DNA from: Microbacterium hominis
Lineage (GTDB): Bacteria > Actinomycetota > Actinomycetes > Actinomycetales > Microbacteriaceae
Length of the DNA: 64,000 nucleotides
Direction of reading: 5' to 3'
Assembly (NCBI RefSeq): GCF_013282805.1
Contig: NZ_CP054038.1
Coordinates: 806,001-870,000 of the forward strand
Below, piece by piece: positions 1 to 64,000 of the stretch. Made by a program: the position numbers and the translations under genes. The notes under the pieces were generated by a model. It saw nothing but the letters and a program-made list of their open reading frames with translations, made no database searches and was not told where the DNA came from. Numbering within the stretch: the stretch's first letter is position 1; each line of letters begins with the position of its first letter.

Positions 1-492
1 CTCCGCGAGAGCGTGCACGGCGTGCTCGGCCTCGTCCACGTTCCACGCGGCGTTGGCGTCGACGCGGATGCGCCCCTCCGGCCCCATGACCTCGCGCACG
101 GCGCGCACACGCGCGACGTCGTCGGCGAGCACCTGGCCGCGCTCGGCGACCTTCACTTTCGCGGTGCGGCACCCGTCGAAGCGCGCGAGCACATCGGCGA
201 CGGCCGTCGCCGTCACCGCCGGCACGGTGGCGTTGACCGGGATCACGTTCCGCACGGGCGCGGGCTGCGGCATCCACCCGAAGTCGATCGCCGCGGCGAG
301 CCAGGTCGCGGCCTCGGCGTCGTCGTATTCGGCGAAGGGCGAGAACTCGGTCCAGCCCTCGGGGCCTTCGAAGACGACCGCCTCGCGCACGTCGACCCCG
401 CGGAAGCGGGCCGCCAGCGGCAGGGCGACGACCCGGGCGGAGGCGAGGATCTCGGACAGCGGCGGCGGTGCGGCAAGGCTCACGGCATCCAT
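1..492 (-). CDS. menC: o-succinylbenzoate synthase, N-terminal part (cut by window edge)
   Basis: Enolase-superfamily enzyme that dehydrates SHCHC to o-succinylbenzoate in menaquinone synthesis, acting in the cytoplasm. From the ATG at 492 there are 164 codons, running off the left edge without a stop, so the C-terminal half is not visible. Visible features are a TAKVKV segment, which fits the family's catalytic KxK, and a RVDANAAW segment, whose Asp fits the first metal ligand. The remaining metal ligands lie outside the window. The start is the only in-frame ATG near the upstream gap; no good ribosome binding site is visible. The divergent neighbour is an F420-type oxidoreductase. Other men genes follow within 20 kb, which supports the call. 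Confidence 0.85.
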   Translation of the reverse strand, partial: MDAVSLAAPPPLSEILASARVVALPLAARFRGVDVREAVVFEGPEGWTEFSPFAEYDDAEAATWLAAAIDFGWMPQPAPVRNVIPVNATVPAVTATAVADVLARFDGCRTAKVKVAERGQVLADDVARVRAVREVMGPEGRIRVDANAAWNVDEAEHAVHALAE

Positions 493-577
493 CCTGCCGT
501 CGCGCGCGCCGCATCAGAAGACGGATCACCGTTCACGCGACGACACCGAGACGGCCCGACCCCTCATCCGACGCCCC

Positions 578-583
578 TAGGCT
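578..583 (+). promoter_or_regulatory. -10 box, leaderless type, LLM oxidoreductase gene
   Basis: TAGGCT ends 6 nt before the ATG at 590, so transcription would begin at or next to the start codon. No ribosome binding site is present. Confidence 0.55.
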
Positions 584-589
584 TTCGCC

Positions 590-1390
590 ATGCCTCTTCT
601 CGACACCCCGGTGCGCCTCGGCGTCCAGCTCGTCCCGCAGCACGTGACCTACCCGCAGATCCGCGAGGCCGTCTTCCGCCTCGAGGAGCTGGGCGTCGAC
701 ATCATCTTCAACTGGGACCACTTCTACCCGCTCTCGGGTGAGCCCGACGGGCTGCATTTCGAGTCCTGGACGGAGCTGGCCGCGTGGGCCGAGCAGACCG
801 AGCGCGTGGAATTCGGCGCCCTCGTCAACTGCAACAGCTACCGCAACCCCGACCTGCAGGCCGACATGGCCCGCACGATCGACCACATCTCGGCGAAGGG
901 CACCGGCACCGGCCGTTTCATCTTCGGCACCGGGTCGGGCTGGTTCCAGCGCGACTACGACGAGTACGGCTACGAGTTCGGCACGGCCGGCTCCCGCCTC
1001 GACGACCTCGCCGACGGCCTCGCGCGCATCGAAGCGCGCTGGGCCAAGCTCAACCCGGCGCCCACGCGCGACATCCCGGTGATGATCGGCGGACAGGGCG
1101 AGCAGAAGACCCTGCGCCTGGTGGCCCGTCACGCCGACATCTGGCACAGCTTCGTGCGCCCCGACGCGCTGGCCCACAAGATCTCGGTGATCGAGAAGTG
1201 GGCCGAGAAGGAGGGGACGGATGCCTCGCGCATCGTCGTCTCGAACGAGCTCGCTCGTCGCACACCGGAGGTCGCCGACGCCCTGTTCGACGCCGGGGCG
1301 CGCCTGTTCACGCTCAACTTCGACGGCCCCGACTACGACTACGACCTCGTGAAGCGGTGGCTCGCCTGGCGCGACGCGAAGAACGCGTGA
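590..1390 (+). CDS. LLM-class F420-dependent oxidoreductase
   Basis: A 266-residue luciferase-like TIM-barrel protein. Family members use F420 (some use FMN) for hydride transfer to unknown substrates. The N-terminus carries the family's early beta strands (VRLGVQLVPQHVTY), an FNWDHFYPL segment typical of the substrate-side loop, and a GRFIFGTGSGWFQRDYDEYG stretch that fits the cofactor phosphate-binding region of F420-type members. The later IPVMIGGQGEQKTLRLVARHAD motif is also characteristic. Length is normal. The gene stands alone between menC (divergent) and metH, with its own leaderless-type promoter. The substrate cannot be predicted. Confidence 0.85.
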   Translation: MPLLDTPVRLGVQLVPQHVTYPQIREAVFRLEELGVDIIFNWDHFYPLSGEPDGLHFESWTELAAWAEQTERVEFGALVNCNSYRNPDLQADMARTIDHISAKGTGTGRFIFGTGSGWFQRDYDEYGYEFGTAGSRLDDLADGLARIEARWAKLNPAPTRDIPVMIGGQGEQKTLRLVARHADIWHSFVRPDALAHKISVIEKWAEKEGTDASRIVVSNELARRTPEVADALFDAGARLFTLNFDGPDYDYDLVKRWLAWRDAKNA

Positions 1391-51954: not shown

Positions 51955-52848
51955 CTAGCGCCGCGCGAACAGCTCGAACTTCTGGGCAAGCCGGTCTCGG
52001 TCGGGATGCGCGGCGCGGCTCGACGGAAGTCGGATCGGCCTTCCGTGCATGTCCTGCAGGCCATGTCGAAGCATTGGCCCATCGATCTCGTCGAGCAGCT
52101 CCTGGTCGATCCGGACTTCGAAGTCCGCCGTTATGCCCATCAACGAGCGGTCATACGCGGCGTGATGGATCTTGCACATCGCCAGCCCATTCGTGACGTG
52201 GGCGACTCCGTGCTCCTCTGCGTCAGGAATGATGTGTGCCGCGTCCAGCAGCTCAGAGTGCCTAATGTCGCACACCGTGCACGCGCCTGAATACGCGTGC
52301 AGCACTCGAGCACGGAAGATCGGTTGGTGGAGTCGGGTGCGCACGATCGACTCGGCGTACCGCCGCTTCTGCTCGTCGTACGAACCCGGATCTCCGAGGA
52401 ACGTGAGTGCTTGATCGAGGGGGAAGCGCACGACCCGAGCGACGGGGTCGTTGTGGGCGATCACGATCGGGTAGTACGGAATGTAGAACCCCTCCCGCAC
52501 CGCGCGGAAGTAAACCAAGGGATCACCGTTGGCCCAGGCTCGCACGAGCTTTGTGTTGTCGCCGCCCTCACCCTCGCGATAGTGATAGGTAACCCATCCG
52601 TCGTCTGACTCGTAGTCGGAATACTTGTTTGCCTTCCATCCCGACATGATCGACAGCGTCGACGAGAAGGTCGCGGGGTTGCGGATCCCCTTGCCCCGAT
52701 CGAGCAACGGAATGTGCTGGTCGCCAAAGTGGTATCCGCGAAGCACCGAGCTGTGGATTTCGTATCCACCCTGGCCAATGAATTGCTCATCAAGCCAACG
52801 GAAGATGTCGGCACGTATCGCGAGCTCCTCCTCGCGGCTTCGCATCAC
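51955..52848 (-). CDS. HNH endonuclease, McrA-like restriction enzyme
   Basis: A 297-residue nuclease of the COG3440 'predicted restriction endonuclease' type. Residues about 205-260 form the HNH domain: CTVCDIRHSELLDAAHIIPDAEEHGVAHVTNGLAMCKIHH holds the zinc Cys pair, the catalytic His of AAH, the Asn, and the CxxH. Residues about 15-150 resemble the DNA-reading domain found before HNH in ScoMcrA/SprMcrA-type enzymes (IPLLDRGKGIRNPATFSSTLSIM, then FYIPYYPIVIA), which in those proteins binds phosphorothioate DNA. It starts within the stop of the head-domain gene (GTGATG), so the two are translated together. Confidence 0.75.
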   Translation of the reverse strand: MMRSREEELAIRADIFRWLDEQFIGQGGYEIHSSVLRGYHFGDQHIPLLDRGKGIRNPATFSSTLSIMSGWKANKYSDYESDDGWVTYHYREGEGGDNTKLVRAWANGDPLVYFRAVREGFYIPYYPIVIAHNDPVARVVRFPLDQALTFLGDPGSYDEQKRRYAESIVRTRLHQPIFRARVLHAYSGACTVCDIRHSELLDAAHIIPDAEEHGVAHVTNGLAMCKIHHAAYDRSLMGITADFEVRIDQELLDEIDGPMLRHGLQDMHGRPIRLPSSRAAHPDRDRLAQKFELFARR

Positions 52849-53514: not shown

Positions 53515-55260
53515 CTAGATCGAGATGAGGTGATCAAGCGAGGTGAGCACGACCAATCGGTCCTGTGCTCTGGTAGCGCCGGCGTAGATCAGGTCAGGCA
53601 GCCGTGCGCTCGTCCCCGAGATGTCAGTCAAGATGATTGCCGGCGCCTCCATTCCCTTGAACTCGTGAATCGTCCCCCAGCGGATGTACGAGGTATCCCG
53701 AATGCCCGAACCCAGCGTCGACACCGAAGTCTTTTGCTCTGTTGCCCGCTTCGCCGCGGAGTCCCGGTATGGCGCGAGGATGACAACGTCCTTCGGTCCG
53801 TATCCTTCGGCGCGTAGTCCACGCACCACGTCATCAAGCATGTTGACTTCGTCGGCCTTCGACGAGAAGAGCCGGACGTCGACGGCGTCGCCGGCTACAG
53901 CATCCCGACGGAACGCCTTGCAGATGCCTGAACGGCCGCTCGCTCGCTCAGCCCACTCGCCAATTTCGCGCCTGTTCCGGCAGTTGGTGTCGAGATCAAT
54001 CGGGACAATGCCTGGCACGCGGCGTTCGATCGTTTCGCGCCCGTCGTCGATCCCGCTCCGAAAGATGTTCTGGTGCGAGAAGTCACCGAGCATGAGCATC
54101 CGACCCTCGCTGAGACCGCCGGCGAGCACGGCGTCCAGAAAGTCGAGGTTGAGGTCGGACGCAATGTCTTGGGCCTCGTCGACGATGAGGTAGTCGTACG
54201 GCGGGGCGAAGTCTGATTCGGTTGCCTTCTCGAGCGCGGCGAGCGGCAGCTCGGTGTTGTACCAGTCGGCGCTCCCGTTCGCCGACGACGTGACTCCACC
54301 GACACGCTCCATCTCGGCGTGGAGACGTATGGCCGTGACACCGCCGACGTCGGCGAGAGCCGATTGCAGGTGACCTTCGAGGAGGCGGTTGAACATGACC
54401 ACGAGCACCCGCTCGCCCGCGCTAGCGTGTCGTCGTGCGGCCTCCGCGGCGATGTAGGTCTTTCCCGTTCCTGCCGGTCCCTCGACGAGCACCCTTGGAA
54501 CCCGACCGATCAGGTCGAGCGTGCGGACCTGATCAGCGGTAAACGACGTCAGCTCTAGCTCCCGGCGCCGTCTGATCTCAGCCGGCTTGATCTCCGTAGT
54601 GAAGGTGGGGGAAAGTACATCCCGGATTCGGTGGACGCGCTCCAACGATGGCTCACCGGCGACGTGGTTGTACCCAACGCGCTTCGTCGCAATGTCTCGG
54701 TCTAGCGATGTGAGTACGCGCCGCACGGCGCTCGCGGGATGGGCGAGGTCGCCCGCGTCAAGCACAGCCCACTCCTGCCAGCCGATCGCCGGTGGAATGT
54801 TCTGCTTCGCGATCGCCGTGAACCATACTGCGTATCCGGCCGGGAATGCGACGGGCTCGAGTGAGCGCTGCCGAAGGAACTGAACAATGCTGTGGAACTC
54901 GCCGCTGGCCTGCGCGAACGGCGAGCGATCAGTCCAGTCGTCGTTGCCAAGCTTCCACCTGCCCGACACATCCGTCTGGATGCGGAGATGAGACTTAACC
55001 TCGATCACCAGGATGCCGGCACCTGGCGCCATGACGACGAAGTCGGCCTCACCCTCCCGCTGGGTGACGTGTCGACCAATCGCGAGGGAGTGGAAAACAG
55101 TCCAGTCGTCGGTGCCGGGGGCGTCGCGGAGCGCAGCGAATGCTGCTTTCTCCCCGGGCGCCGCGTCGTCGGAGATCGCCGGCGGAATCATGCGCGCCAC
55201 ATCTACCGCCGCACCCAAAGTTTGCTCACGATGCCGAATCCTTGCAGAGGAGTCGGACAT
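53515..55260 (-). CDS. NERD nuclease-related domain with SF1 helicase
   Basis: A 581-residue protein. Residues about 35-145 form a NERD domain, a restriction-endonuclease-like fold: EKAAFAALRD, GEADFVVMAPGAGILVIEVKSH, with the D-ExK residues intact. Residues about 240-581 form an SF1 helicase: Walker A VEGPAGTGKTYIA near 266, Walker B YLIVDEAQDI, the GDFSHQNIF motif, and the late motifs TIHEFKGMEAPAIIL and LIYAGATRAQDRLVVL. The ATG at 55260 lies inside the end of the UvrD-nuclease gene (35-base overlap), so both are co-translated. A role in foreign-DNA processing is inferred from the fold and neighbourhood. Confidence 0.83.
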   Translation of the reverse strand: MSDSSARIRHREQTLGAAVDVARMIPPAISDDAAPGEKAAFAALRDAPGTDDWTVFHSLAIGRHVTQREGEADFVVMAPGAGILVIEVKSHLRIQTDVSGRWKLGNDDWTDRSPFAQASGEFHSIVQFLRQRSLEPVAFPAGYAVWFTAIAKQNIPPAIGWQEWAVLDAGDLAHPASAVRRVLTSLDRDIATKRVGYNHVAGEPSLERVHRIRDVLSPTFTTEIKPAEIRRRRELELTSFTADQVRTLDLIGRVPRVLVEGPAGTGKTYIAAEAARRHASAGERVLVVMFNRLLEGHLQSALADVGGVTAIRLHAEMERVGGVTSSANGSADWYNTELPLAALEKATESDFAPPYDYLIVDEAQDIASDLNLDFLDAVLAGGLSEGRMLMLGDFSHQNIFRSGIDDGRETIERRVPGIVPIDLDTNCRNRREIGEWAERASGRSGICKAFRRDAVAGDAVDVRLFSSKADEVNMLDDVVRGLRAEGYGPKDVVILAPYRDSAAKRATEQKTSVSTLGSGIRDTSYIRWGTIHEFKGMEAPAIILTDISGTSARLPDLIYAGATRAQDRLVVLTSLDHLISI

Positions 55261-57973
55261 CGCAGTGCTTGCACTTCTCCTTCGTGGGTGCCGGTGCAAA
55301 AGTCAGCGAGCGCAGGCCCGAGGCCGCCGCCTGCACTCGTACCTCCGCAGCCGCGATCGCACCATCAGAGACATCTACCGAGTGACGCGCCCCTTGCCCC
55401 ATGTCGTGCACGAATCCCGCCGAGACCGTCAAACCCTCACGTCGGCCCGCGTCCGCATAGATCTGCAGCTGAAGGGGTTCGATCTCGGGCCCTGTCGCGG
55501 TCTTGTAGTCGACGATTGCGAGATTTGAGGGGACTCCATCGTGCTCGTCGTAGATGACGTCGGCGCGCCCCGCGACGACGACCCCGTCGAGGAACAGCTC
55601 GAAGGGCCGCTCCGTTGCCCACGTCCGCAGGAACTCCTCGGGGTGGCTATCGAGGTATGTCTGCACGAGCGCACGGGCACGCGCCTTCATCAGTCTGTGT
55701 GCCGGCTTGTTGGCGAATGGCAGAAAGAAGTCCGAGTCGACCAGTGCGTCGATGTCGGATGCCGAGGGCATCTCTCCGGTGTCCTTCGTACGTTCCGCGA
55801 GCACGCGCATCACGTGGTGGACCGCGTTGCCGTAACCCAGCTCATCGCGAACGGGGGGAAGGAACCCGAGCCGTGATCGCAAGAGGTAGCTGCGCCCGCA
55901 GGCGAGGTAGGCAGCTACGTCGCTGTAACTCAGTTGCAGGTCAGGGGACTCGATCGACTTTGCATCGAAGGAATCGGCGCTGCCTCCGACGCCGGCAATC
56001 GCGCGCGCCGACTCAAGGTACGGTGACGGCGCGGCGGACTGCTTGGTGACTCGTGCGTGTGACGAGAGCGAGACCCAATCGCGCGCGCGCGTCACGGCGA
56101 CGTAGAACAACCGTCGTTCGTCGGCGTCCGATCCCTCGTAGCGTGAGGCATCGAACATCTCCCGCGGCAGCAGCCACGTTTGCTGGGAGCCAGTCCTCAT
56201 CGAGGGGAATCGTTTCTTGGTGAGCGACGGCAGGAACACGACCGGCCATTCGAGACCTTTCGCGCCGTGCACCGTTCCCAGGGCGACTGCGTCGCCAGCC
56301 AGGTCCTCCTCGCCATCGAAGTCGTCGTACTCTCCCGACGCGTAGTTCACCATAAGGATGGCGAGGCTCTTGTAGTACCAGGGTGTCCAAGCGGTGCCGA
56401 CCTGTTCGCCGGGGTTCGCCGTGTCCCGACGTGATCGACGCTGTACGGATTCGTAATCCGCGAGCACCTGCGTGAACCGGGCGATAGTGCCGAGGGCGTT
56501 GCGAACCAGAAGGTCGTCGAGGTTCCACTCTTTAACGCCGAGAAGGCCGAGCAGCGCATAGAGGTCACCGATCAGATCTACCGACGACGATGTCGCCGAG
56601 GCCCGCGCCTTCCACGAAGTCAGGTGATGGCGGACGAGTTGCAGTGAGCGCCGGTTGAGCGTGAACGCGCGCACGACTGCGAGCACGACCTCGTCGAGCG
56701 TGACGTCGATGCGAGCCTTGGTACCGGCGAATTTCCACTGCAGATCGGCGAGCCATGCGTACACCGAGCCCAGCGCGTCAGCGGCGGGTTGCTCGAAGAG
56801 TCCGGTGCGTCCACCCGGCTGAACGGGGATTCCATGCGCCGCGAAGGCGTCCATGATCCTCGGGTACGCGGCCTTGCCGCGCACGAGCACAGCGATGGAC
56901 CGAAACGGTACGCCGCTCGCGTTGAGTTCGACAATGCTCTTGGCCAGGTCTGACGCCTCGTCAGCTTCGGTGCCCGTACCTACGCTGATCTTCACCGACT
57001 CGCCGGATGCGGGTCGGGACGGCAGCATCTCTTTGTCGAGCCGACCGGGAATCGACCCCGCGAACTCGTTTGCGAGCGCAACGATCCCCGGCCGCGAGCG
57101 ACGGTTGGTGAGCAAGCGGAACTGCGCGACGTCCGGGTAGCGCTCGGTGAACGTCACAATGTTGTCTACCGCTGATCCGCGCCACTGATAGATCGCCTGA
57201 TCGTCATCGCCGACGACCACCAGATCCGCACGCCCCGTCGGTGATGCGAGCAGCGAGATCAGCCGCTCCTGAGCGGGGTTGATGTCTTGGTACTCGTCGA
57301 CGATGAGGTGCTCGACAACCGCAGTGACGGCAGCGTGGATCGTTGGCTGCTCGAGTGCCCGGACGGCCTGAACGATCTGCTGGCCGAAGGTCAGCACGCG
57401 ATAGCGGTCGAGCGTCGCGTAGTAGTCCCGAACGGCATCCTTGAAGTCGCCGTCCGGAAGCGCGTCGACGTCGATCAACTCGTTCTCCAGAACGTCGACG
57501 CTTCGCAGAAAGTTCTTGATGCCGTCGAAGAGACCGCGCCCGAATCGCTTAAGGTTCAAGCGGCTGCCCTCGCGGGACATCAGCGCGACGAGTTGATTCT
57601 CGTCAACGAGTGAGTACGCCTCGAAGTGCGGGTCGTAGGTCTGGAGCAGCCGGAAGCAGTACGCGTGGATGGTGCTTACCTGAAGTTGGCCGAGCTTGTC
57701 GCCCGCGGAATGCCCCACACGGGCCGTCACCCGCTGCCGGATGCGTTCCTTGAGCTCTGCCGCAGCCTTCTCGGTGAACGTGAACGCAACGATCGAGCGA
57801 GGTTCGACACCCGTCGCGATGAGGTCGGCGACGCGTTGCGAGACCACCTCTGTCTTGCCCGAGCCAGCGGCGGCGATGATCTGGATGTGGCCGCCGCGGT
57901 GAGCGACGGCATCCGCAGCGTCGCCCTCGAGGGTCGGGATGTCAGTTTCGTTGGCGTCCACAGTGTCTGTCAC
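55226..57973 (-). CDS. UvrD-type helicase with C-terminal Cas4/AddB-like nuclease
   Basis: A 915-residue helicase-nuclease. Helicase part, residues about 15-640: Walker A AAAGSGKTE with Lys 40, LTNRRSRPGIVALANEF, Walker B LIVDEYQDINPAQ, GDDDQAIYQWRG, TVHGAKGLEWPVVFLPSL, and VAVTRARDWVSL. Nuclease part, about 680-912: GYGNAVHHVMR, GRADVIYDE, IVDYKTATG (the D...DxK core), and the cysteine set C near 690 plus CKHCDVRLLC (CxxC-x5-C) at the end, which fits a 4Fe-4S cluster as in AddB and Cas4. The start is GTG, 155 bases from the divergent Cas4-like operon. Confidence 0.85.
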   Translation of the reverse strand: MTDTVDANETDIPTLEGDAADAVAHRGGHIQIIAAAGSGKTEVVSQRVADLIATGVEPRSIVAFTFTEKAAAELKERIRQRVTARVGHSAGDKLGQLQVSTIHAYCFRLLQTYDPHFEAYSLVDENQLVALMSREGSRLNLKRFGRGLFDGIKNFLRSVDVLENELIDVDALPDGDFKDAVRDYYATLDRYRVLTFGQQIVQAVRALEQPTIHAAVTAVVEHLIVDEYQDINPAQERLISLLASPTGRADLVVVGDDDQAIYQWRGSAVDNIVTFTERYPDVAQFRLLTNRRSRPGIVALANEFAGSIPGRLDKEMLPSRPASGESVKISVGTGTEADEASDLAKSIVELNASGVPFRSIAVLVRGKAAYPRIMDAFAAHGIPVQPGGRTGLFEQPAADALGSVYAWLADLQWKFAGTKARIDVTLDEVVLAVVRAFTLNRRSLQLVRHHLTSWKARASATSSSVDLIGDLYALLGLLGVKEWNLDDLLVRNALGTIARFTQVLADYESVQRRSRRDTANPGEQVGTAWTPWYYKSLAILMVNYASGEYDDFDGEEDLAGDAVALGTVHGAKGLEWPVVFLPSLTKKRFPSMRTGSQQTWLLPREMFDASRYEGSDADERRLFYVAVTRARDWVSLSSHARVTKQSAAPSPYLESARAIAGVGGSADSFDAKSIESPDLQLSYSDVAAYLACGRSYLLRSRLGFLPPVRDELGYGNAVHHVMRVLAERTKDTGEMPSASDIDALVDSDFFLPFANKPAHRLMKARARALVQTYLDSHPEEFLRTWATERPFELFLDGVVVAGRADVIYDEHDGVPSNLAIVDYKTATGPEIEPLQLQIYADAGRREGLTVSAGFVHDMGQGARHSVDVSDGAIAAAEVRVQAAASGLRSLTFAPAPTKEKCKHCDVRLLCKDSAS

Positions 57974-58127: not shown

Positions 58128-60863
58128 GTGGCGACGATTTCGACGGGCGGCGGATCGAGCGCGGTCGCGGCATCCGCTCACGCGGCCTGTGCACGGTTTC
58201 GGGGCACCGATCCGCTGATCACCGGGCGACCGCGTCGCAAGCTCGCCGCCGAGATCGGGTTCGAAGATCTCGGAGTGGGTATCCCCGAAGCGCGCTGGAT
58301 GCGCGCGATGACGTTCGAGCGTCTCGTGCGCGACAAGGCCTTCGCGAGTCGTGTCACTACCTCGGCGGTGGGCGAGCTGGGTTTGGATCGCCCCACCTCC
58401 GTCGTCACCCTTGATGTGAGGGTGGATGCCGAAAAGACTGCCTCCGCGCTGAGCGCTGCCCACGACCGCGCAGTTCGCAAGGGCGAGGCGACACTGATCC
58501 ATCAGCCCGCGTTACCCTTCCCGGGGTTCGAGGGCAAGGATGCGACCGAGGTCAAGCCCGACTACGTCGTCGTAGCGTCGAAGGCGGGGAGCGGCGGATC
58601 GGGATCGTGGCTGATCGTTGGCGACGCCAAAGACTACGAGCGCGTCCGCTCCCGCATCGACGACGGACGGATGCTGAAGGGCTTCCTTCAGGTCGCGCTC
58701 GGTGCCGAAGCGTTCCAGGCCTGGTCGCGGGTGCCCGACAACATGACGGTGCACACGCACGGCATCCTCGCGGTTCCGCGCAACGCGTTCCTCCAGCCGA
58801 TGGCCGTCGTGGAAGATCTCCGCGACCACCGTGAAGAGGTGCGAATGCGGGTCGCCGAGCGACGCGCCGAGGCAGAGGCTGCGCAGCTCGAAGAAGATGA
58901 CGCGCTCTCCGACTACGTCGCTCACCTCACGGCTACTTTCGACCCGGCGACGTGCACGACGTGCAACATGTTCTCGTTCTGCCGCGAAGAACTGCGAAAG
59001 TCAGATGACCCTGATGACCTGCTGGTCGAGATCGGGATTGACCCAGCTATGCGCGCTCACCTCCGCCCGCTCATCGCCGATCCTGAAGCTCAGGTGCCAG
59101 CGCCAGAGTCGATCGTCGCCATGGTCCGCGCGACGATCGCAGGTACCGCCGTCCACACGGGTCAGCGTCGCATTGATGCGGCAGGGCTTCCGGGCACGAT
59201 CAACGTTGTCCTTGCGAAGTCGGATGCGGCCGCTCTGGGCGTCCACGGCATCGGCATCCAGCGCGTGACCGCGTCTGGTCGCGGGGAATGGAAATTCGAG
59301 ACCTTCGCGAACCCGCAGGCGCCGGAGACCCGGCGCAATGTGATGAGGCATCTCGGCGTAGCCATCGAAGACGCCCTCCGTGATCAGCGCAAGGCGAACC
59401 CGACCGCGCCGAGCCCGATCCATCTCGTGGTTCCCGACGCGGCGACGGCCGATGTGCTCACCTCGATCGCCGATAACCTCGCCGGCGTCGAGCTCAGCCG
59501 TCTCCGGTGGGAGCGCGACCTCGACCAGCACCGCCCAGCGCTCACCTGGGACGGTGAGCCGGCGGAGGTCCCACGTCCCTTGCGCGAAACGGCCCGCACG
59601 GCGGTGTCATTCCTGCTCGAGGAGGACAGAGCCCGCGCGCTGAGTGTCCGATGCCCGATCATCGATCTGCGCACCGTGCTCTCGCGACACATCATCGCGG
59701 GTGGCCCGGCCGTCAACGCCCTCCGCCTCGACTACGTCGTGGAGTGGGCCGCGAGCAGCAAGCCGATCGATCACCGCGCCTACGGCGACAGCATCGAGCA
59801 GAACGAATACACCCCCGGTGCTCGGCTCACCAAGACGCGGTCCGATGCGCTGCACCAGGCTCTCGCCGGGGTCGCACCTCGCGGACGGTCGCGCGGCGTC
59901 GATCCCGACCCGGCACTCCACGATCGGCTGACCCGCGAGGAGCTCCAGTACAAGGCAGAGGTGCTCGACGTCGCGCTGGACGCGCTCGAGCCGCTGGAAG
60001 TGTCCGAGCTTCGTCAGGCGTACCGTGCGGTGGAGGGTGACGCTCAAGCAGTGTGGCGCCGTCGCCTATCTCTGAATGCGTCCGATCTCGTGCGTTTTGG
60101 GCGCACCTACCGGCGCTGGCGCAACTCGCTGGTCCGCGTGATCGAGGCCGACGCCGCGTGCCACGATCAGCTCCTCGCACTTGCCAACCCATCAGCGGCC
60201 GCCGAGATGGCAACGGATGCCGGTACCCGCCATATCGCGCACGCCACCGTGCTGTCGGTCGATCCCCTCGAGATCGCGATCGACTCGCGTCGCATCGTCG
60301 CCGGCAGCAAGATCGTGCTGCTGCACCTCAATGGCGAACCGTGCGTCGAGGGTGTCGGTGCGTCTGTCACTCTGACGGCTGGCGCCTTCACAATCGAGGG
60401 CTTGAGTATCGGTGCCCTCACCCGCGATGGGATCGACGAGGCTCGCCCCGAGCGGGAGTTCCGATGGATGCCGAAGATCGCAGCGCATCTCGCACCCGGT
60501 GATCAGCTGGTCGTGGCCAATGTCGATTGGTTCGCGTCGGCGCCGTGGAGCAAGCGACTCAACCTCGCGCGTCCGCCGGCGGATGAGTACGGTGCTCCGA
60601 AGGTCGATTGCACGCGAGACTCGTACGCACAGGACCCCGAAGCGCACAAGTGGTGCTGCAAGTCCCACGTCGCCAACGAGTCAGAGTTCTCGGACCAGCT
60701 CGCCGAACGCCGCGCGCGCGGCGAGCTCAACCCGGAGGCGTGGCCGCCTGTCCGCGATCTCGACGGCTTCGAGGTCTCACCCGGTGGGTTGCCGGAGGGT
60801 GACGCCACTCGCACCCCGTCTGTTCAGCCGCCGGTGGACGTGACCCTGGACGATGTGGAGTGA
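58128..60863 (+). CDS. Cas4-like Fe-S nuclease protein with large unknown C-terminal region
   Basis: A 911-residue protein. Residues 20-290 form a PD-(D/E)XK nuclease of Cas4/RecB type: Asp 145 in VKPDYVVVA, Asp 166 and Lys 168 in VGDAKDY, a Gln helix GFLQVALGAEAF, and the Fe-S cysteines C21, C276, C279 and C285 (CTTCNMFSFC). The remaining 600 residues carry no motif I recognise; a nuclease-plus-helicase split of the TM0106/COG2251 kind is possible because the next gene supplies a helicase. GTG 58128 has a GGAAGGG site; an upstream open frame extends into the divergent promoter region and is not supported. The stop overlaps the helicase start. Confidence 0.75.
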   Translation: MATISTGGGSSAVAASAHAACARFRGTDPLITGRPRRKLAAEIGFEDLGVGIPEARWMRAMTFERLVRDKAFASRVTTSAVGELGLDRPTSVVTLDVRVDAEKTASALSAAHDRAVRKGEATLIHQPALPFPGFEGKDATEVKPDYVVVASKAGSGGSGSWLIVGDAKDYERVRSRIDDGRMLKGFLQVALGAEAFQAWSRVPDNMTVHTHGILAVPRNAFLQPMAVVEDLRDHREEVRMRVAERRAEAEAAQLEEDDALSDYVAHLTATFDPATCTTCNMFSFCREELRKSDDPDDLLVEIGIDPAMRAHLRPLIADPEAQVPAPESIVAMVRATIAGTAVHTGQRRIDAAGLPGTINVVLAKSDAAALGVHGIGIQRVTASGRGEWKFETFANPQAPETRRNVMRHLGVAIEDALRDQRKANPTAPSPIHLVVPDAATADVLTSIADNLAGVELSRLRWERDLDQHRPALTWDGEPAEVPRPLRETARTAVSFLLEEDRARALSVRCPIIDLRTVLSRHIIAGGPAVNALRLDYVVEWAASSKPIDHRAYGDSIEQNEYTPGARLTKTRSDALHQALAGVAPRGRSRGVDPDPALHDRLTREELQYKAEVLDVALDALEPLEVSELRQAYRAVEGDAQAVWRRRLSLNASDLVRFGRTYRRWRNSLVRVIEADAACHDQLLALANPSAAAEMATDAGTRHIAHATVLSVDPLEIAIDSRRIVAGSKIVLLHLNGEPCVEGVGASVTLTAGAFTIEGLSIGALTRDGIDEARPEREFRWMPKIAAHLAPGDQLVVANVDWFASAPWSKRLNLARPPADEYGAPKVDCTRDSYAQDPEAHKWCCKSHVANESEFSDQLAERRARGELNPEAWPPVRDLDGFEVSPGGLPEGDATRTPSVQPPVDVTLDDVE

Positions 60864-62443
60864 GCCCGGTGATCGAATTCACGACTCCGCTCGCCGCGCC
60901 CGCGAGCGGGGTGCACCACGAGGCTGCGGCCGCGGGCAACGCGGCGGTGGCGGATGCCGCGGCGCGAGCGCTCCGCGAGGCACTCTCACGCACCGCTCCG
61001 ATCGACCGGATCCTGCTCAAGGCTGCCGCTGGAGCCGGCAAGTCGTACGTGCTCAAGCGACTCGTCGCTGAGGCACTCGAGCATCCGCAGTGCACCCAGG
61101 TGTCGATCGTCGCGTTCACGAACAAGCAGACGCGACCGCTCGCGCGGTCGCTGGGCAAGCTTCTCGGTAAGGATCGGGTCTGCCTGCGCGTGAGCGCCAA
61201 GGGCGCCGGTGACGTACCTCCTGGCGTTGCCGATGCAGTGACGGTCGCCGCCGCGCGGAAGGAGATCCCATCGACCGCGCAGGTCATGATCTCGACGGTC
61301 GCGATGCTCCGTGCTCCCAAGGAGCTGTGGGAGATGGAGAAGGCGCTCGGCGGCAAGGGCGCCAACGGCGAGCGCACGTTTGACGTGCTGTTCGTGGATG
61401 AGGCGTGGCAGATCCCTCACCACCTCTTCGACGACATCACCCGTGCGGCTCCCATCTGGGTGGGTGTCGGAGACGTCGGTCAGCTGCCACCGCTCGAGAT
61501 CGGCACCAACCCGTGGCGCGGCGACGATCGTTACAACCCCTATCGCGCCTGGCCGACCGACTACGACGGCGACTCCCGAACGTGGTCCCGTGAGCTCCCC
61601 GCGGTGTGGCGGCCCAACGCTGCCCAGCTTGGGTTGTGGCGCGCGTTCTACCCCGAATGGTCCGAGCTGAACTGCGTCGCCGCCCCCGGCGACCGCACGA
61701 TCAACCTCTCGCCGGCGCCGGTCGTTGAGCGCCCTTCGGCACGCTCAGGAACCGCGGAGCGAGGCGATGCGAAACCAGCGATCACGCCGGAGGCCGCCCG
61801 CGCGGTCTGGGACCAAGTCGCGACCGGAACCCCGACGATTCTCGAGATCGACGGTCTCGATCCCGCGGAGGCACCCGACGTCGACCTCCCGCTGATGAAC
61901 GCGATCGAGGCGCTGCTCGACCACCTCTTCACCTCCGGCGTCTCGCTCGGGCACGCGAATTACGACGACAACGCTGCGCCCGACGCCACGCTGACGACGA
62001 CCGAGACAGGGTCTGCGCACGAGGACCCGATCGTCTCCGTCCTCGCCACGCGTAACCAGGCAGTGGACGACGCCGCCGACATGGTCGCCCGCCTCCGCGA
62101 GAAGCACGACCTCGCCGAGAACGATCTCGTGAGCTCCACCGTCGACTCGTACCAGGGGCAGACGAACGGGATCACCGTTGCCCTTCACCCGCTGACCGGC
62201 GCGGCGAAGCTCGACGACTTCAACTCCGCTTTCGGTCGACTTGCCGTCACGTGCACCCGAGCGACACACGGGCTGCTGCTCGTCGCCCGGCCCGGGCTCG
62301 ACACTCTGCTCCAGCAGGCTCCGGCCCGCCCGGGCACGCCGTTCGGTGAGCCCGGCAATCGCACCCTGCCGCGCCAGACGCATCAGCGCATTCTTGCCAC
62401 GTTCGCTCGCGGCACCCTCGACCTCACCCCCTCCGACGCCTAA
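60860..62443 (+). CDS. SF1 (Upf1/Dna2-like) DNA helicase
   Basis: A 527-residue SF1 helicase. Walker A LKAAAGAGKSYVLKRL near residue 53; motif Ib region TNKQTRPLARSL; ISTVAMLRAP; Walker B VLFVDEAWQIP near 178; motif III GVGDVGQLPPLEIG; motif V SSTVDSYQGQTNGITVAL; and motif VI LAVTCTRATHGLLLVARPG. Residues around 285-307 (VVERPSARSGTAERGDAKPA) are an inserted stretch from a dispersed repeat. It starts within the stop codon of the Cas4-like gene (GTGA) and is followed 10 nt later by the methyltransferase. Confidence 0.85.
   Translation: MSPVIEFTTPLAAPASGVHHEAAAAGNAAVADAAARALREALSRTAPIDRILLKAAAGAGKSYVLKRLVAEALEHPQCTQVSIVAFTNKQTRPLARSLGKLLGKDRVCLRVSAKGAGDVPPGVADAVTVAAARKEIPSTAQVMISTVAMLRAPKELWEMEKALGGKGANGERTFDVLFVDEAWQIPHHLFDDITRAAPIWVGVGDVGQLPPLEIGTNPWRGDDRYNPYRAWPTDYDGDSRTWSRELPAVWRPNAAQLGLWRAFYPEWSELNCVAAPGDRTINLSPAPVVERPSARSGTAERGDAKPAITPEAARAVWDQVATGTPTILEIDGLDPAEAPDVDLPLMNAIEALLDHLFTSGVSLGHANYDDNAAPDATLTTTETGSAHEDPIVSVLATRNQAVDDAADMVARLREKHDLAENDLVSSTVDSYQGQTNGITVALHPLTGAAKLDDFNSAFGRLAVTCTRATHGLLLVARPGLDTLLQQAPARPGTPFGEPGNRTLPRQTHQRILATFARGTLDLTPSDA
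61720..61776. repeat. GGTCGTTGAGCG-type dispersed repeat inside the SF1 helicase gene
   Basis: The element opens GGTCGTTGAGCGCCC, contains the palindromic partner CGCTCAGGAACC, and closes GAGCGAGGCGATGCGAAACC. It keeps frame. The start and the GAGCGAG tail match the copy in menB. Confidence 0.7.
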
Positions 62444-62453
62444 GGACTACGCG

Positions 62454-64000
62454 TTGTCACATCTGAACGACCTCATCCGCCAACTCGCCACGAAAGACGA
62501 GTCGCTCGCGCGCGACATCGAGCGCGAAGTCGCCGCGCTCCAGGACCGGCGCGCGTTCGGCCTCAACTTCGAGCGCCACCAGCCCGAGGCAGTGGAACTG
62601 CCCGGCCGCAAGGTGCGCCGCGGCGACAAGGTGCGTGTCCTGCCTCCGCGCGGACAGATGCCGAAGAAGGAGAACGAGCGGCTCTTCAAGGTCCGCGAGA
62701 TCGCAGCGACTGACGACGGACGTGTCGCAACGATCGAGGCTCTCGATGACACCGAAGCCATTGACCAGGTCGTCATCGAGGATCTCGTCGTCGTGGCGGA
62801 GTTCCGCGACCCGATCTATCCCGGACTCGTCTCGACGGGCAAGGTCGAGCGGGGCGGCGACAAGCCCTACCACGCAGTCATCAATGCAGAGAACTACCAC
62901 GCGCTCCAGGCGCTGCTCTTCACGCACCGCGGCAAGGTGGACTGCATCTACATCGATCCGCCATACAACACCGGCGCGAAGGACTGGAAGTACAACAACG
63001 ACTACGTCGAGGGTGACGACCTCTACCGCCACTCGAAGTGGCTCGCGTTCATGGAGCGCCGGCTGCTGCTCGCGAAGGAGTTGCTGAACCCCGATGACTC
63101 GGTACTCATCGTCACGATCGACGAGAAGGAATATTTGCGGCTAGGGATGCTACTTGAGCAGGTGTTTCCTGAAGCGGAGATACAGATGGTGAGCTCGCAG
63201 ATCAACCCGGCCGCCTCGGCGCGGGCTGGATCGTTTGGTCGAGTTGATGAGTACATCTACTTCGTGCGCTTCGGGGCATCGGTGGCTGCACGGGTCGTCT
63301 TATCGAGGGAATGGGTGTCTTCTCGAGGGCGAACGCACACAGGTGTTCCCCGATGGGACATGCTGCGCCGTTCTGGCGGCGGAGCGCGCCGACAGGACTC
63401 GCCGGGTGGTTTCTACCCGATCTACATCGACGAATCTGGCCCCCGAGTGGCGGCCGTCGGCGAACCGCTCGCCGCGGGCAACTCGGAGCCGCCTCAAGTT
63501 GATAACGCCGTGGCGATCCTGCCCATCCGCCAGGACGGCTCAGAGGGACGATGGATGTGGAGCAAGAAAGAGTTCGAGCGCAGATTGGCGCAGGGACGAG
63601 TGCGCATTACGGGATCAGCGACGCAGGGATTCGTTGTCTCGATCCTGAAGGACGGTGAGTACGCCAAGATTCTCGCCGGTGAGTTCGCGGTTGCGGGTCA
63701 CGGTCCGGATGGGTCAATGCAGTTCGAGAAGGGCGACGTTGACCAGGTTCGCGCTATCCCTGGAACGCAGTGGCGAATCGCGTCGCATGACGCCACGCAG
63801 TATGGATCTCGGTTGCTTCGCAGTGCCGTGATTCCCGGGCGCGAGTTTCCGTTTCCGAAGTCGCTTTACGCCGTCGAGGATGCGATCCGGTTCTTCGTCG
63901 CGGAGAAGCCGAACGCAACGGTGCTCGACTTCTTCTCAGGCTCGGGAACGACAGCGCATGCCACCTTGCGCTTGAACAAGCAAGACGGTGGGCTCAGGCA
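62454..64000 (+). CDS. beta-class site-specific DNA methyltransferase (runs off right edge)
   Basis: At least 515 codons, open at the right edge. The order of motifs is that of beta-class N6-adenine or N4-cytosine methyltransferases: catalytic DPPYNTG at residues 168-174, the variable target-recognition region from about 225 to 470, then the SAM-binding VLDFFSGSGTT at about 490-500. A helical start (LNDLIRQLATKDESLARDIEREV) and a small beta domain (RRGDKVRVLPPRG) precede the catalytic part. The TTG at 62454 is used because AAGGA lies 7 nt upstream and no other start is available after the helicase stop. The recognition region has noticeably more A/T-rich codons than the rest. Confidence 0.88.
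   Translation, partial: MSHLNDLIRQLATKDESLARDIEREVAALQDRRAFGLNFERHQPEAVELPGRKVRRGDKVRVLPPRGQMPKKENERLFKVREIAATDDGRVATIEALDDTEAIDQVVIEDLVVVAEFRDPIYPGLVSTGKVERGGDKPYHAVINAENYHALQALLFTHRGKVDCIYIDPPYNTGAKDWKYNNDYVEGDDLYRHSKWLAFMERRLLLAKELLNPDDSVLIVTIDEKEYLRLGMLLEQVFPEAEIQMVSSQINPAASARAGSFGRVDEYIYFVRFGASVAARVVLSREWVSSRGRTHTGVPRWDMLRRSGGGARRQDSPGGFYPIYIDESGPRVAAVGEPLAAGNSEPPQVDNAVAILPIRQDGSEGRWMWSKKEFERRLAQGRVRITGSATQGFVVSILKDGEYAKILAGEFAVAGHGPDGSMQFEKGDVDQVRAIPGTQWRIASHDATQYGSRLLRSAVIPGREFPFPKSLYAVEDAIRFFVAEKPNATVLDFFSGSGTTAHATLRLNKQDGGLR

Follow-up and report, generated by a model that had tools for sequence, protein, structure and literature searches.

Among the described enzymes most like the subject of this report is Bad from Geobacillus, a single polypeptide in which an iron-sulfur (Fe-S) nuclease and a Dna2-like helicase are joined, encoded beside a type III-type methyltransferase. 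The available part of the Bad paper raises the possibility that a Dna2-like enzyme adjoining such a methyltransferase belongs to a new restriction enzyme class (PMC7430649). We analysed a 64,000-nucleotide stretch of Microbacterium hominis DNA (positions 806001-870000 of the 3.9 Mb contig NZ_CP054038.1, hereafter "the window") and also read the contig sequence past its right edge. Here, a Cas4-like nuclease gene (Cas4L) is followed by a helicase gene (Hel) and then by the Mod and Res genes of a type III restriction system.

This locus shares the Fe-S nuclease and Dna2-like helicase with Bad, but they are encoded by two genes, a DEDD-like domain is added in Cas4L, the methyltransferase comes with a Res gene and other loci have type ISP partners, a distinction based on the available description of Bad. 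A second relevant context was described in 2017: a UvrD-Cas4 fusion with type III Mod/Res (PMC5704561, section on this context). The window's UvrD-Cas4, Mod and Res genes look like that arrangement, so part of the locus is already known, but the text of that section does not describe the Cas4L-Hel pair. Our literature search, which covered titles and abstract openings, found no description of the split pair or of its type ISP association. We hold, at about even confidence, that Cas4L-Hel is an accessory helicase-nuclease to translocating restriction systems, degrading the DNA those systems attack.

A nuclease and a helicase encoded by two genes

Cas4L has the features of the Cas4/AddB/Dna2 Fe-S nucleases: four cysteines (C21, C276, C279 and C285), a PD...DxK core (D145, D166 and K168) and a Cas4 fold. 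These residues are conserved in all 53 aligned rows, except D166, which is conserved in 52. Past the nuclease, the protein is confidently predicted to form a DEDD-like domain, seemingly without the acidic motif, and a beta barrel. A preliminary description, made from the window's sequence without database searches, had rightly recognised the Cas4-like nuclease, but what it called 600 unexplained residues corresponds to this predicted DEDD-like domain and barrel. The fold names rest on VIA-align Z because Foldseek gave no Cas4L match at E ≤ 0.001. Searches of Pfam, NCBIfam and PADLOC with Cas4L gave no match, and a wider search with eight family members (Pfam) and 53 (NCBIfam) gave stray weak matches only (best E = 0.004). 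The Cas4L profile had seven matches among PDB sequences, the best being Csy3 (E = 0.067).

Hel contains the motifs GAGKS, DEAW, VDSYQG and TCTRA, and its model matches 5ean (Foldseek E = 1.8e-14). It is a Dna2-like superfamily 1 (SF1) helicase that comes after the nuclease, as in Dna2, but as a separate gene, and the earlier Dna2/Upf1-like assignment stands. No barrel (1B) domain is evident before the motor core. Hel has weak matches only in Pfam, NCBIfam and PADLOC; because Cas4L is unmatched and Hel weakly matched, no model in the scanned libraries names the pair.

The predicted models of Cas4L and Hel map in order onto the nuclease (127-410) and helicase (625-1050) of eukaryotic Dna2. Dna2 and Bad are each a single polypeptide, but nuclease and helicase are two genes in all of the 57/57 loci that retain at least 80% of each. 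The best reading of these models is a split Dna2-like helicase-nuclease.

Hel also matches the helicase domain of the TM0106-family RecB-like nuclease (TIGR03491; hhalign probability 96.5, E = 9e-10), a family with a domain order that is similar by eye. However, TM0106-family proteins are single chains, and the Cas4L profile does not match them significantly (probability 0.3). The family is common in the genus, being present in 18 of the 23 relatives searched. Dna2 and TM0106-family helicases may serve repair, and Hel's resemblance to both favours the main rival explanation: that the pair works in repair, processing DNA ends to heal breaks made by the cell's own restriction enzymes, and accompanies those enzymes as a safeguard and not as a weapon. 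We consider this somewhat unlikely but a serious alternative, and the distribution of the pair bears on it from both sides.

Distribution and restriction partners

Scanning a single genome from each species yielded 58 loci; every one is in Actinomycetota and two are fragments. Cas4L relatives (46-93% identity over at least 80% of the length) occur in 56 of these, the remaining two being the fragments. For the counts that follow, we used a set of 60 loci made up of scan loci, the window, two plasmid copies and G213, with four repeats of genomes among the 58 left out. A Hel relative follows Cas4L in 57 of the 60, and in 55 of these the gap is at most 39 bases (the largest being 295 bases); the three loci without Hel (L032, L059 and L080) are on contigs that end inside or before it. 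In the window, the Cas4L and Hel frames share four bases and Mod begins 10 bases past the end of Hel, so the tight coupling noted in the preliminary description was correct.

An ATP-dependent restriction system lies directly beside the pair in 33/60 loci, a raw count. Eighteen loci have the window's kind of type III system, 13 have type ISP, two have another type III-like system and 27 have none. The ISP call was made by annotation on L060 and the type III-like call by annotation on L065 and partly on L053, while the others were made by BLAST cluster. Among the ISP frames, some (L067, L075 and L076) read as incomplete or broken, the group without a partner takes in short contigs (L032, L059, L078 and L046) as well as L045 with its Mod remnant, and the rows include near-copies (L015 and L046, and Rhodococcus rows).

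On a Cas4L tree built with a quick method, the partner labels need 14 changes, compared to a minimum possible of three and a mean of 27.9 when shuffled. The tree's starred branches force at least three changes for type III and at least five for ISP; L072, an ISP row, is on a long branch and its placement is unsure. From these counts, partners appear to be inherited over long stretches, yet to have changed several times. That the same pair adjoins restriction systems of more than one kind suggests an add-on that can be reused to destroy foreign DNA. A stronger claim, which we put forward only tentatively, is that the pair is a swappable effector that plugs into unrelated methylation-guided translocating enzymes (type III and ISP) and itself destroys the foreign DNA, i.e., a new restriction effector class. 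For the question posed by the authors of the Bad study, the family offers natural controls, because the pair occurs next to type III systems, next to type ISP systems and without a partner.

The 27 pairs with no adjacent restriction system are compatible with the repair explanation, as is L045, where a Mod remnant covering the first 88 residues (L045:14235-14502) lies between an intact Cas4L-Hel and a DUF262-type gene, i.e., the pair seems to have persisted after its restriction partner was lost. Other aspects of the distribution suit defence better than repair. The spread is patchy: Cas4L matches occur in 7/396 genomes of the order, six of them clear (the window's genome included) and one weak (61 residues). 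The pair is also found on two Rhodococcus plasmids, and it has defence-type neighbours (Azaca and DUF4011/Hhe genes) at varying distances. A search of viral contigs gave 24 pattern matches, none of which was confirmed.

The 27 partnerless loci would also fit a two-gene anti-phage system that works by itself and only happens to share defence islands with restriction systems. Other helicase-nuclease pairs act in defence, e.g., Gabija. However, restriction genes adjoin the pair with short gaps and in a fixed order (18/18 type III loci), unlike the Azaca and DUF4011 genes. UvrD-Cas4 also tracks the restriction system: a relative is near the pair in 12 further loci, every one of which has such a system. 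We consider a self-sufficient pair unlikely and rate this below the repair explanation.

The type III partner and a proposed mechanism

Mod is a type III methyltransferase by its PADLOC match (MTase_III, E = 1.8e-273, residues 1-704 of 712). Beta-class methyltransferases are defined by motif order, and Mod has this order, with DPPY at residue 168 ahead of FSGSG at 494, so the class named in the preliminary description was right. That description had proposed an undescribed system and named a standard type III pair downstream as a finding that would count against it; with Res adjoining Mod, such a pair is what we found. The idea of a system built around an orphan methyltransferase is rejected because Res lies downstream of Mod. 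The description's view that the genes match no known set survives for Cas4L-Hel but not for Mod/Res, which is type III and published together with UvrD-Cas4 (PMC5704561, in part).

Res matches ResIII (E = 2.6e-11) and, over a short stretch, REase_III (E = 1.2e-9), indicating a superfamily 2 (SF2) motor. Mod and Res overlap by four bases in 18/18 type III loci. The C-terminal nuclease-like motif of Res has DPH in place of (D/E)xK in 31/31 rows (one a duplicate), and PD precedes it in 30/31, with and without Cas4L. We rejected the idea that a nuclease provided by Cas4L allowed this Res to lose its own: 12 of the rows are from genomes without Cas4L and also have DPH. Since the motif is identical there, it may still be functional or may have no connection with the pair. 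On a Res tree, the 18 pair-associated rows and the 12 pair-less rows separate weakly (bootstrap 46). Res relatives (E 1e-30) occur in 16 of the 396 genomes of the order and co-occur with Cas4L only in the window's genome and G249, so in this sample the restriction family is mostly without the pair.

The DPH motif could also mean that Mod/Res just sense and translocate, leaving the Dna2-like pair as the true effector nuclease of a new restriction enzyme class, an idea that the Bad authors raised for their own enzyme (PMC7430649, available part). We think this very unlikely, given the DPH motif in Cas4L-less rows and the annotated type ISP partner (L060), which by annotation retains an Mrr nuclease domain.

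If Cas4L-Hel is instead an accessory to restriction, the two proteins would assemble into one Dna2-like complex encoded by two genes. The restriction enzyme (type III Mod/Res here, ISP or type III-like elsewhere) would find unmethylated DNA and cut it or stall on it. The helicase-nuclease would then be recruited: Hel would travel along the DNA and unwind it, and the Cas4 domain would cut the strand that Hel feeds to it, while the DEDD-like and barrel domains might grip the DNA and the partner. Together with the neighbouring UvrD-Cas4, the complex would turn a few cuts into destruction of the DNA. We infer an anti-phage role, and such a pair could explain how rarely cutting enzymes destroy a whole phage genome.

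Neighbouring genes and other defence systems

Table 1. Genes of the locus (window positions) and parts of Cas4L
Feature	Position	Strand	Description
Cas4L	58128-60863	+	911 aa, GTG start, GGGAAGGG few bases upstream
Cas4L nuclease domain	residues ~5-293		Cas4-type Fe-S nuclease
Cas4L middle domain	residues ~350-636		DEDD-exonuclease-like fold (predicted)
Cas4L barrel	residues ~700-800		beta barrel (predicted)
Cas4L C-terminal cluster	C828, H840, C843, C844, H847		Cys/His cluster
Hel	60860-62443	+	527 aa, SF1 helicase core, Dna2/Upf1-like
Mod	62454-64000, extending past the window to would-be 64592	+	712 aa, TTG start, type III beta-class methyltransferase
Res	beyond right edge, after Mod		870 aa, 4-base overlap with Mod
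1102-aa protein	beyond right edge, after Res; with DruE-type helicase spans L002:11230-19222		no model match
DruE-type helicase	beyond right edge, after 1102-aa protein		1566 aa
UvrD-Cas4 fusion	55226-57973	-	915 aa, UvrD + PDDEXK_1, divergent from Cas4L
NERD nuclease-helicase	53515-55299	-	adjoins UvrD-Cas4 gene
HNH-like protein	51955-52848	-	Cys/His pattern (by eye), same island

Further genes do lie past the right edge, as had been expected: Res, the 1102-aa protein, the DruE-type helicase and one more. This last gene read downstream matches the PADLOC HEC-06 and Orf5 models and is presumably of DUF262 type. A NERD-helicase gene is also present in L025, L026 and L077.

The 1102-aa and DruE genes are a separate Druantia-III-like two-gene unit in which the partner protein matches no model. 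They resemble Druantia type III and the YprA-family helicases, as described in the available parts of PMC12458937 and PMC13192584, in having a DruE-type helicase, here with the 1102-aa protein encoded next to it. None of the six members of the 1102-aa family (the window's own included) matches a PADLOC model, DruH included, even with the E limit set at 1, and the protein has no match in plasmids. Both genes occur in three other genomes of the family (35-40% and 50-57% identity, respectively), with no Cas4L pair or Mod/Res within the 18 kb read. We rejected them as a core part of the system: within the regions retrieved, the window's genome and L025 are the only ones to have them after the pair (downstream flanks reach ~10 kb and may stop short of genes lying further on), they were kept in L081 after most of the pair was lost, and they occur elsewhere without it.

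The preliminary description had set the locus apart from DISARM, BREX, Gabija and standard type I-III systems, and had seen Hma as the closest idea. The separation holds for DISARM and Gabija, as neither DrmB nor GajA is among the PADLOC matches listed for the eight proteins scanned (the best 25 for each of Mod, the DruE-type helicase and UvrD-Cas4), and the YprA-type helicase fits DruE (DruE3, E = 2e-175) far better than DrmA (E = 9e-17). It fails for type III, given Mod/Res. No Hma match is among the PADLOC matches listed (for Mod, the best 25 of 32).

Two other loci have unusual gene structures. In L081 (Microbacterium oleivorans), one frame (L081:9632-11530) joins Cas4L residues 23-186 to Res residues 528-865; neither Hel nor Mod has a match there, whereas the DruE unit is intact. 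In L101 (Nonomuraea), three separate genes (L101:4906-8915) encode a 376-aa protein that looks Cas4-like by eye, a second protein of 475 aa and a helicase, the first two having no PADLOC match and the helicase matching only weakly.
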